Assembly (NCBI GenBank): GCA_020432165.1
Contig: JAGQGU010000058.1
Span: 1 to 64,000, forward strand
Reading direction: 5' to 3'
Length of the DNA: 64,000 bases
Source of the DNA: Thermomicrobiales bacterium
GTDB taxonomy: Bacteria; Chloroflexota; Chloroflexia; Thermomicrobiales; UBA6265
Shown here: in pieces, positions 3,762 to 63,545 of the stretch
Numbering within the stretch: the stretch's first letter is position 1
How the letters are laid out: every line of letters starts with the position of its first letter
Position numbers and translations under genes: made by a program
The notes under the pieces: generated by a model
The model's database searches: none
What the model was told of the DNA's origin: nothing
Seen by the model: the letters and a program-made list of their open reading frames with translations, nothing else

Positions 3762-3805
3762 CCGCCGCTCACGCGGCGGCCACCGGGTATAAAACCCGGT
3801 GCTAC
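3762..3805 (-). repeat. GTAG-headed double palindrome
   Basis: Read on the minus strand, GTAG (3802-3805) heads an 8-bp stem CACCGGGT/ACCCGGTG with a 5-base loop (3781-3801), followed by a second stem CCGCCGC/GCGGCGG (3762-3779). The organisation matches other two-hairpin units in the window. Confidence 0.65.
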
Positions 3806-3856: not shown

Positions 3857-3912
3857 ATCGACGGTTACGCCGTCGATCGGGCAGATACCGGCTGCGCCGG
3901 ATCTGCCCCTAC
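3857..3912 (-). repeat. GTAGGGGC-type double palindrome
   Basis: On the minus strand GTAG (3909-3912) heads a hairpin with arms GGGCAGAT/ATCTGCCC, followed by a second hairpin ATCGACGG/CCGTCGAT (3857-3877). The second hairpin is nearly identical to the inner hairpin on the right side of the RAYT gene at 32740-32760, so this is the best-matching stand-alone copy of that unit. Confidence 0.75.
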
Positions 3913-16697: not shown

Positions 16698-16722
16698 GTA
16701 GCCCCGGGGCTTGTCCCCGGGG
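16698..16722 (+). repeat. GTAG-headed palindrome
   Basis: GTAG followed by CCCCGGGG-CTTGT-CCCCGGGG, a perfect 8-bp stem, 14 bases after the alpha-mannosidase stop. It may also serve as a terminator stem. Confidence 0.65.
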
Positions 16723-16759: not shown

Positions 16760-16791
16760 GGGCGGATACCTCTTCGAGGATCCGCCCCTAC
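16760..16791 (-). repeat. GTAGGGGCGGATC-type palindrome
   Basis: On the minus strand GTAG (16788-16791) heads GGGCGGATCCTC-GAA-GAGG-T-ATCCGCCC, the same hairpin type that flanks the RAYT gene. Arms GGGCGGAT/ATCCGCCC and the inner CCTC/GAGG pair perfectly. Confidence 0.7.
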
Positions 16792-29754: not shown

Positions 29755-32083
<2,329 letters not shown>

Positions 32084-32116
32084 GGGCGCACGTAGGGGGC
32101 GATCCCATCATGTCAC

Positions 32117-32169
32117 GTAGGGGCGGGTCCTGAAAGGTACCCGCCCAAATCGGCGACTCTGTCGCCGAT
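32117..32169 (+). repeat. REP unit left of RAYT gene
   Basis: GTAG (32117-32120) heads GGGCGGGT-CCTGAAAGGT-ACCCGCCC, then ATCGGCGAC-TCT-GTCGCCGAT (32149-32169). Both stems are perfect. It mirrors the unit at 32740-32792, with GTAG at the outer end on each side. Confidence 0.85.
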
Positions 32170-32180
32170 AAATGATGGCG

Positions 32181-32672
32181 CTATTCCGCCTTCTTCTTGC
32201 CATCGAAATACGGATTCCCCTGAATATACCCGCGAATCGATTCCAGCTCGCGATCATTGCGGATAATGCGATCGTAGTAGCTACGCTGCCACATCTTCTC
32301 CTCGTATGGCTGCGCGCCACGTTTCACCGCATCAGAGTAGTCACGCTGTACAGAGACCTTCACCCAGCGCACAACCTCGCTACTACTCGGGTTGTCGCCA
32401 TGCCCCTGCGTGCCAATCCACAAAATGCCATGCATGTGATCTGGCATGATGGCGAAATCATCAAGCATCACACCATTGAAACGATCCGGAATCTGCATCC
32501 AACGTCTGGCTAATATCAGTCCAGCCGCCGACAGGAACATCTCATCGTTCTGGATTGATCCAAACAAATGCTGCCGGTTGTGGGTACAGAATGTGACAAA
32601 GACGCCGCCAGGTTGTGCGTAGTCATAGTCAGGATAGCGAAGAGAGTTGCGTCGACGAGGCAGATCTGGCAT
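32181..32672 (-). CDS. REP-associated tyrosine transposase (RAYT)
   Basis: Single-domain HUH nuclease of the Y1 transposase superfamily, 163 residues. The N-terminal YPDYDYAQPGGVFVTFCTHN and the HUH motif in MPDHMHGIL (His79, His81) are characteristic of RAYTs; the catalytic tyrosine is Tyr132 or Tyr133 in QRSYYDRIIRND. The protein nicks single-stranded DNA and stays bound through the tyrosine. It is flanked by palindromic units with GTAG at their outer ends. No TnpB-like partner gene is present. Motifs are intact, so activity is plausible. No strong ribosome site is seen before ATG 32672, so expression may be low. Confidence 0.9.
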   Translation of the reverse strand: MPDLPRRRNSLRYPDYDYAQPGGVFVTFCTHNRQHLFGSIQNDEMFLSAAGLILARRWMQIPDRFNGVMLDDFAIMPDHMHGILWIGTQGHGDNPSSSEVVRWVKVSVQRDYSDAVKRGAQPYEEKMWQRSYYDRIIRNDRELESIRGYIQGNPYFDGKKKAE

Positions 32673-32739
32673 GGGCGAGACCTCAACGATTGGGTAGCGT
32701 GGTTGTCAGCAAGAATATCCGACGACAGGTGCCAGGGAT

Positions 32740-32792
32740 ATCGACGGCGGTGCCGTCGATGCGGGCGAATACCCTGCGGGATTCGCCCCTAC
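32740..32792 (-). repeat. REP unit right of RAYT gene
   Basis: On the minus strand GTAG (32789-32792) heads GGGCGAAT-CCC-GCA-GGG-T-ATTCGCCC, then ATCGACGGC/GCCGTCGAT (32740-32760). The inner hairpin nearly equals that at 3857-3877. Confidence 0.85.
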
Positions 32793-32814
32793 GTCGTCGT
32801 GTGAATGTGAACCC

Positions 32815-33315
32815 CTACGTGGTGCGGAGGGCGTCATCCTTGCGGACGACGGTGTCGTGCATGGTTTGCTGATATGCACGCATGGCGTCGCGGAGTGCAT
32901 CGTCAGCCGTGGCCAGAATGCGCACAGCCAGCAATCCGGCATTCCTGGCATTCCCAATAGCGACGGATGCCACAGGAATACCGGCCGGCATCTGCACGAT
33001 GCTCAACAAGGCATCCACGCCGCCGAGCGTCTTCATCGATTCCGCCACCACCGGCACACCGATCACCGGCAGAGTCGTCGCACTGGCAACCATGCCCGGC
33101 AGATGCGCCGCACCGCCGGCACCGGCGATGATGACACCAATACCAGCATCGGCAGCGGCGCGGGCGAAGTTCAGCATCTCATCCGGCGTGCGGTGGGCGG
33201 AGAGAATGCGTGTCTCCACCGTCACCCCGAAGTCGTTCAACACATCGATAGCGGCCTGCATGGTGGGGAGATCGGAATCCGATCCCATGATGACGGCGAC
33301 ACGAAGGGTGCTCAT
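32815..33315 (-). CDS. purE: N5-carboxyaminoimidazole ribonucleotide mutase
   Basis: Class I PurE, which moves the carboxylate of N5-CAIR to C4 in purine synthesis. The 166 residues show VAVIMGSDSDLPTM, SAHRTPDEM (catalytic His), GAGGAAHLPGM and PVIGVPV, all typical. It follows purK with an ATGA overlap, so PurK supplies its substrate and the two are coupled. The TAG stop is part of GTAGGGG, adjoining the repeat region on the right of the RAYT gene. Confidence 0.96.
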   Translation of the reverse strand: MSTLRVAVIMGSDSDLPTMQAAIDVLNDFGVTVETRILSAHRTPDEMLNFARAAADAGIGVIIAGAGGAAHLPGMVASATTLPVIGVPVVAESMKTLGGVDALLSIVQMPAGIPVASVAIGNARNAGLLAVRILATADDALRDAMRAYQQTMHDTVVRKDDALRTT

Positions 33316-63503: not shown

Positions 63504-63545
63504 GGGCGGATACTCTGCGCCTTTGGCTCCGAGATCCGCCCCTAC
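63504..63545 (-). repeat. GTAGGGGCGGATC-type palindrome
   Basis: On the minus strand GTAG (63542-63545) heads GGGCGGAT..ATCCGCCC arms with an extra inner CTC/GAG pair. It lies between the converging mannosyltransferase and EF-G-like genes. Confidence 0.7.

Follow-up and report, generated by a model that had tools for sequence, protein, structure and literature searches.

The DNA between pyrG and purE analysed here raises the question whether a tyrosine transposase gene of the RAYT (TnpAREP) type, framed by mirrored palindromes, forms a unit that moves as a whole, or whether it is a resident gene whose flanks belong to a dispersed REP population on which its product acts. The window, i.e. the whole stretch of DNA analysed, comprises 64,000 nucleotides. 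Its genome is probably of the Chloroflexota, as supported by a scan with pyrG, in which the relatives reached at most about 62% identity and the best of them came from Chloroflexi. The block in question spans 32117-32792, exactly the 676 bp attributed to it in the earlier note, with GTAG at 32117 on the plus strand and at 32792 on the minus strand, and it consists of a left unit (32117-32169), the RAYT gene, and a mirrored right unit (32740-32792). Each unit has the same architecture, in which GTAG is followed by a hairpin of 11 bp with a single bulged T and, 2 nt further on, by a hairpin of 9 bp; we refer to the outer hairpin as hp1 and to the inner, companion hairpin as hp2. The features of the block and its immediate surroundings are as follows.

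32080 to 32098, plus strand: two extra GTAGGGG motifs (at 32080 and 32092) without a full hairpin, outside the left unit (sequence; direct repeats D2 and D17)
32117 to 32120, plus strand: GTAG foot of the left unit (sequence; kept in 11 aligned copies from the same genome, which were fetched by a pattern that requires GTAG)
32121 to 32146, plus strand: left outer hairpin hp1, GGGCGGGTCCTGAAAGGTACCCGCCC, with one bulged T (DNA fold; covariation in 11 copies; covariance model R1)
32149 to 32169, plus strand: left inner companion hairpin hp2, ATCGGCGACTCTGTCGCCGAT (DNA fold; hp2 pattern with 2 mismatches)
32181 to 32672, minus strand: RAYT/TnpAREP gene, 163 aa (Pfam, NCBIfam, motifs, AlphaFold model, PDB match)
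32740 to 32760, minus strand: right inner companion hairpin hp2, ATCGACGGCACCGCCGTCGAT (DNA fold; exact match to the hp2 pattern)
32763 to 32788, minus strand: right outer hairpin hp1, GGGCGAATCCCGCAGGGTATTCGCCC, with one bulged T (DNA fold; R1 match of 49.5 bits)
32789 to 32792, minus strand: GTAG foot of the right unit, CTAC on the plus strand (sequence)
32812 to 32818, minus strand: extra GTAGGGG motif, CCCCTAC on the plus strand, outside the right unit (direct repeat D9; inverted repeats I21-I23)

The double-hairpin nature of the flanks, also claimed in the earlier note, is confirmed by folding. Both 55-nt strands adopt an identical predicted DNA fold, in which an unpaired GTAG is followed by 8 bp, the bulged T, 3 bp, a 3-nt loop, 2 nt, and 9 bp with a 3-nt loop; the folding energies of the two units are -22.5 and -21.0 kcal/mol (z-scores -7.3 and -6.0), and none of 200 shuffles reaches either of them. 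The mirrored 56-nt arms are identical at 41 of 56 positions, compared to a maximum of 34 in 200 dinucleotide shuffles of the 1.1-kb region, and the window has 9 occurrences of GTAG ahead of a perfect 8-bp stem vs 0.1 in shuffled sequences. GT[AG]G-tagged hairpins lie less than 1 kb from the RAYT gene on both sides, one of the features expected of a REPtron. The outlying GTAGGGG motifs on both sides of the block are probably degenerate REP remnants. The stop codon TAG of pyrG (32081-32083) is supplied by the REP-type GTAG at 32080-32083; likewise, the stop codon of the RAYT gene at locus L061 starts TAGGGGCGACC...GGTCGCCC.

The identity of the gene is supported at several levels. The 163-aa protein matches the Pfam family Y1_Tnp (E 1.7e-6), and its best NCBIfam family is REP_Tyr_transpos (NF047646), with 61.7 bits, below the curated cut-off of 80, which is a curation threshold and not a biological defining feature; with the IS200 transposase model NF033573 it scores 21.5 bits and does not reach the cut-off of 55. 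The AlphaFold2 model, built from 23 aligned sequences (pLDDT 90), finds as its best match in the PDB the complex of TnpAREP with a REP hairpin (4er8, E 4.1e-7), followed by the transposases of ISDra2 and IS608. The HUH motif is formed by H79-M80-H81, so that a RAYT gene with the HMH variant, as proposed from the sequence alone, is indeed present. The catalytic tyrosine had however been misplaced at Tyr132/133: the tyrosine of the RAYT signature Y---NP (Y149-IQG-NP) is Tyr149, which is located 68 residues after H81, is invariant together with H79, H81 and N153 in the 23 aligned relatives, and has the YIYINP tyrosine of E. coli TnpAREP as its counterpart in the alignment. To judge from these motifs, Tyr149 is likely the catalytic nucleophile. 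Tyr132/133 fall instead in the segment W128-Q129...D134-R135...R138, which corresponds to the GTAG-contact residues; W94, Q95, E100, H101 and R104 have been described in this role, along with the Y---NP signature of RAYTs (PMC6006769, in which TnpAREP/RAYTs are class 2), and W94, Q95 and R104 characterise the REP-associated subclasses. W128, Q129 and R138 are the counterparts of W94, Q95 and R104 in an alignment that is weak (E 0.14) and is supported by the fold match. D and R in the place of E and H are found in TnpAREP subclasses 2.5 and 2.7, and the locus combines signs of different subclasses, with a bulged stem as in 2.2 and three G-C pairs at the base of the stem as in 2.4. Among the other loci compared, L072, L073, L074, L075 and L077 encode members of the RAYT family with an insertion between the HUH and Tyr motifs; several of these insertions contain a peptide GTACRA that looks REP-encoded, the gene of L077 contains a REP hairpin, and the insertions recall the REPs known to be inserted in frame in TnpAREP subclass 2.4.

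The flanking hairpins had been taken for REP hairpins, and their recurrence in the genome bears this out. A strict hp1 pattern has 11 matches in the 3.2-Mb genome of the window and none in the reversed control. All of these 11 copies were chosen for their GTAGGGGCG start; both stems, of 8 bp and of 3 bp, pair in 97% of cells despite changes on both sides, and the covariation of the stem (0.303) exceeds that of the shuffles (0.125), none of 500 being as high. Little or no variation is seen at three bases, namely the bulged T, the T that precedes the upper stem (fixed by the search pattern) and the G five bases into the 3' stem. By their positions, these bases appear to resemble the unpaired pyrimidine, T11 and G32 of the E. 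coli REP, which count in its recognition (PMC8266576). The covariance model R1, derived from hp1, finds at least 52 matches in the 105-contig assembly of the same genome, a lower bound (150 candidates were scored), as are all copy numbers from our pattern and model searches; REP copy numbers usually exceed 100 per genome (PMC2817692). Elsewhere, R1 has 12, 22 and 2 matches in three congeneric genomes and 34 and 10 in one other genus, while the rest of the family has none or weaker matches, often to shorter or longer forms. Head-to-head pairs with the outer GTAG/CTAC about 90-110 nt apart, i.e. the REPIN arrangement, account for 4 of the 40 copies read (strict test: L110, L114, L122, L125). Outside the block, the window contains further copies, among them the following.

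3857 to 3912, minus strand: two-hairpin copy, hp1 at 3879-3912 and hp2 at 3857-3877 (R1; hp2 pattern with 1 mismatch)
16760 to 16791, minus strand: hp1 copy (pattern; R1 match)
63504 to 63545, minus strand: hp1 copy (R1 match)

Another type of GTAG hairpin, GTAGCACCG...CGGTG, is present in the window at 3805, 16896 and 49407 (minus strand) and flanks none of the six RAYT genes found in the genome.

The companion hairpin distinguishes a part of this population. The inner palindrome ATCGRCGGC-N3-GCCGYCGAT has 11 exact copies in the genome of the window, 10 of which adjoin an intact or degenerate GTAG hairpin, mostly at 2-nt spacing. Some companion hairpin is present in 15 of the 40 GTAG-hairpin copies read (strict test), and many GTAG hairpins lack hp2; hp2 therefore marks a two-hairpin REP subtype and not the RAYT gene alone. 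It is tantalizing to consider the entire two-hairpin unit as the functional substrate, with the RAYT or a RAYT dimer reading GTAG-hp1 plus hp2. Room for such a reading is left by the near absence of hp2 copies without hp1, by the 2-nt spacing kept in most cases and by the compensating changes in the stem of hp2. The many copies of hp1 without hp2, on the other hand, weaken this reading, and we consider it unlikely. If it were true, the REP system would be one of two hairpins, and hp2 would have evolved as a further element for recognition or spacing. At L135, L136 and L147, the GTAGGGGAGGAT variant of the REP is followed by a companion hairpin of another kind, GTCGACGCC(N)ATGGCGTCGAC.

The window gene is one of six Y1 genes of its genome, and each of them has hairpins on both sides, every set being different in sequence: GTAGCCCTGGGG, GTACGCCCGCG, TIR-like ACTCGGGCCTCGC, GTAGCGCCG, GTAGCAGCGGAG and, for the window gene, GTAGGGGCG. 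With about 52 copies in 3.2 Mb, we estimate that chance alone is very unlikely to have put inward-facing copies on the two sides of one of six RAYT genes, each at no more than about 100 bp. The other five RAYT-like genes reside on contigs C67, C105, C99, C31 and C26 (L001-L005); the one on C99 has TIR-like ends (ACTCGGGCCTCGC...) in place of GTAG hairpins. The RAYT gene of C31 and its 63%-identical relative in the sister genome G002 (L027) both have GTAGCGCC hairpins at the gene. A second REP family, GTAGCCCYGGG...CCCRGGG, flanks the RAYT gene of C67 and has 49 matches in the genome of the window (G000) vs 0, 1 and 0 in the three sister genomes; its copies are often arranged in tandem (C21:57245-57607), and the window contains an example at 16698-16722. 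Possession of hp1 and of the gene is not strictly coupled. G002 has 22 R1 matches and no orthologue of the window RAYT, and its three RAYTs all lack hp1 at their flanks, so that the REP family can exist without this gene, either after loss or in the service of another RAYT. G013, a 72%-complete assembly, has 34 R1 matches and no RAYT match.

The gene itself is present in a single copy in its genome, where its nearest paralogue is 41-42% identical and no second copy of the 676-bp block was seen. The earlier note had advised a search of related genomes for this RAYT; among 61 genomes of the order, the other 60 yielded no orthologue, and no homologue above 42% identity at the threshold used. No close relatives were found in contigs of GTDB genomes either, and a plasmid search, with four distant matches only (at most 34% identity), gave no sign of plasmid carriage.

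The comparison of empty and filled sites, also advised earlier, was informative for the REP copies. Three copy sites, all between conserved genes, were compared with the genomes of sister species. Neither the REPIN at G000:C31:106806 nor the cluster at G000:C82:96398 is found at the orthologous sites of the sister G001. There, 13 and 53 nt separate the flanking alignments, compared to 180 and 438 nt in G000, and a search of the G001 sequence revealed no GTAG hairpin at either site. At the third site, G000:C99:63704, the GTAGGGG hairpin is missing in G001, and G002 has one single hairpin in the opposite orientation. These copies are lineage-specific, whether by insertion or by loss.

For the block as a whole the same comparison found no clean empty site among the sister loci, as these differ by more than the block, with a sensor kinase between purE and pyrG in G001, G002 and G003. 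The order in G000 is purK-purE-REP unit-RAYT-REP unit-pyrG. In G001 it is purK-purE-sensor kinase-pyrG, with about 50 bp between purE and the kinase, an interval that measures about 1.1 kb in the identical order of G003. In G002 it is purK-purE-361-aa gene-lone two-hairpin REP-degenerate purE 3' end fragment-kinase-pyrG. The window contains no match to the sensor kinase or to the 361-aa gene. In the lone REP of G002, hp1 is the same as in the right-hand unit of the window over GGCGAATCCCGCAGGGTATTCGCC, and the 91%-complete G002 assembly contains no copy of this RAYT. Two readings of the locus history remain: either the RAYT was gained beside an existing REP and the kinase was lost in G000, or the RAYT was lost in G002. 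The purE fragment beside the lone REP (L193, G002:C77, 5614-5806) is frameshifted and has an intact purE 1.4 kb upstream; it is possibly a REP-associated duplication.

Given these observations, we are highly confident that the locus is a REPtron, i.e. a single-copy RAYT gene with cognate REPs on both sides, and we regard a REPtron that acts in trans on the REP family as its best overall explanation and a strong one. The in-trans mechanism taken separately is probable, by analogy: cleavage, cognate pairing of the protein with the REP family, and movement in trans are what we infer, with the chemistry and the in-trans spread drawn from work on E. coli, Stenotrophomonas and Marinomonas (PMC8266576). 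Most likely, the RAYT would recognise the GTAG foot and the bulged outer hairpin when the strand is single-stranded, e.g. in the lagging-strand template. Cleavage at a dinucleotide close by would follow, by Tyr149 and with the metal ion bound by the HUH histidines, and the joining of strands would lead to the copying or movement of REP or head-to-head REPIN units to other intergenic sites, whereas the RAYT gene itself would stay in place and the flanking units would be residents of the same REP population. The earlier statement that RAYTs cut at GTAG-type tetranucleotides is inaccurate, as the enzymes studied have their cleavage sites at CT (or CA) dinucleotides on the 5' or the 3' side of the REP, and GTAG serves in recognition, perhaps as a guide, the choice of site being described for one enzyme (PMC8266576). 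On the 5' side of the two GTAG feet of the block, CA is present but CT is not, over a stretch of about 20 nt at the right foot and of 13 nt at the left.

The mirrored ends with a Y1 transposase between them could also suggest an autonomous IS200-like insertion element, with the double hairpins as its ends and the 676-bp block moving whole; consistently, the block is missing from the purK-purE-kinase-pyrG interval of G001 and from the pyrG-purE intervals of G025 and G028. However, the ends are members of a larger, dispersed REP family with many lone hairpins, the protein is far from the IS200 model, and the lone right-hand-type copy in the same purE-pyrG interval of G002 implies that the right-hand end predates or outlives the gene there. 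A single-copy gene, with nothing closer than 42% in 61 genomes of the order and no second block, likewise leaves whole-unit transposition, as envisaged in the earlier note, unsupported, and published work gives no evidence that tnpAREP moves (PMC8266576). An autonomous element is therefore disfavoured, and we consider it quite improbable. The strong, GC-rich hairpins, intergenic between pyrG and purE, might instead be ordinary terminators of the crowded pyrG/RAYT/purE region, unrelated to the transposase. But no T-tracts follow the stems, the GTAG foot, the bulged T and the companion hairpin are kept in dispersed copies, and the copies differ between sister species at orthologous sites; we give this explanation hardly any credence. 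Both candidates were rejected, the autonomous element on account of the single-copy gene with dispersed ends, and the terminators on account of the missing T-tracts and the preserved GTAG and bulge.

A different kind of alternative accepts the REP family and questions the role of the window gene, which would be a passenger or decaying, while the GTAGGGG REPs would be moved by one of the other five RAYTs or by an absent one. The persistence of the family in G002 and G013 without this gene agrees with such a scenario, as does a GTAGGGGAGGAT copy about 300 bp from the RAYT gene of C105 (L118). On the other hand, the reading frame, the HUH motif, Tyr149 and the RAYT-type WQ...R segment are all intact, and among the RAYTs of the genome only that of the window lies between two GTAGGGGCG units, the rest being flanked on both sides by different hairpins; we consider a passenger role unlikely.

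With the REPtron as the preferred reading, its kind has already been described, and what is worth describing here is the two-hairpin unit together with six differently tagged RAYTs in one genome. The T. roseum GTAG-23 family of the 2013 survey presumably comes from Thermomicrobium, a member of the Chloroflexi. Since Di Nocera et al. 2013 reported GTAG REPs in Chloroflexi among other phyla, and REPtrons in most GTAG-bearing species (PMC3733652), the need for a description in Chloroflexota was overstated in the earlier note. Like those REPtrons, the locus has a tyrosine transposase gene between GTAG palindromes, with dispersed single and head-to-head copies and several REPtrons per genome; unlike them, its units carry a second, companion hairpin. 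With the 24 families of that survey, the comparison is by description. The locus resembles E. coli TnpAREP and its bulged REPs (group 2/subclass 2.2; PMC8266576, 4er8) in the protein fold, in the GTAG foot and in W, Q and R of the contact segment, and the REPs of both have a long stem broken by an irregularity with an unpaired pyrimidine. However, the two proteins are only 21% identical over the structural alignment, D134 and R135 stand in the place of E100 and H101, and the single bulged T corresponds to a two-base mismatch in the E. coli REP. In Pseudomonas, the double inverted repeats of P. putida 607 and P. fluorescens 4255 provide a precedent (PMC3733652, Fig. 8B), in which a degenerate GTAG unit is linked to an unrelated stem-loop on either side of the RAYT gene, with hundreds of copies; by description, the mirrored arrangement and the multiple copies are alike, but here the GTAG unit is intact, with a second hairpin at 2 nt. 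Finally, members of the IS200/IS605 group (IS608, ISDra2) share the HUH Y1 transposase fold and the hairpins near both ends, and differ from the locus in its single copy, in its ends common to a dispersed REP family, and in its score far below the cut-off of the sequence model.

The spread of REPs still awaits a settled explanation, and the RAYT systems cited above for their biochemistry are gammaproteobacterial. Six RAYTs with their own hairpins in 3.2 Mb, along with sister species whose sites are partly empty, make this genome a good setting for the study of RAYT-REP specificity and of spread in trans, and the purE-pyrG interval offers a case in which one species has the RAYT and a sister nothing but a single REP of that type.
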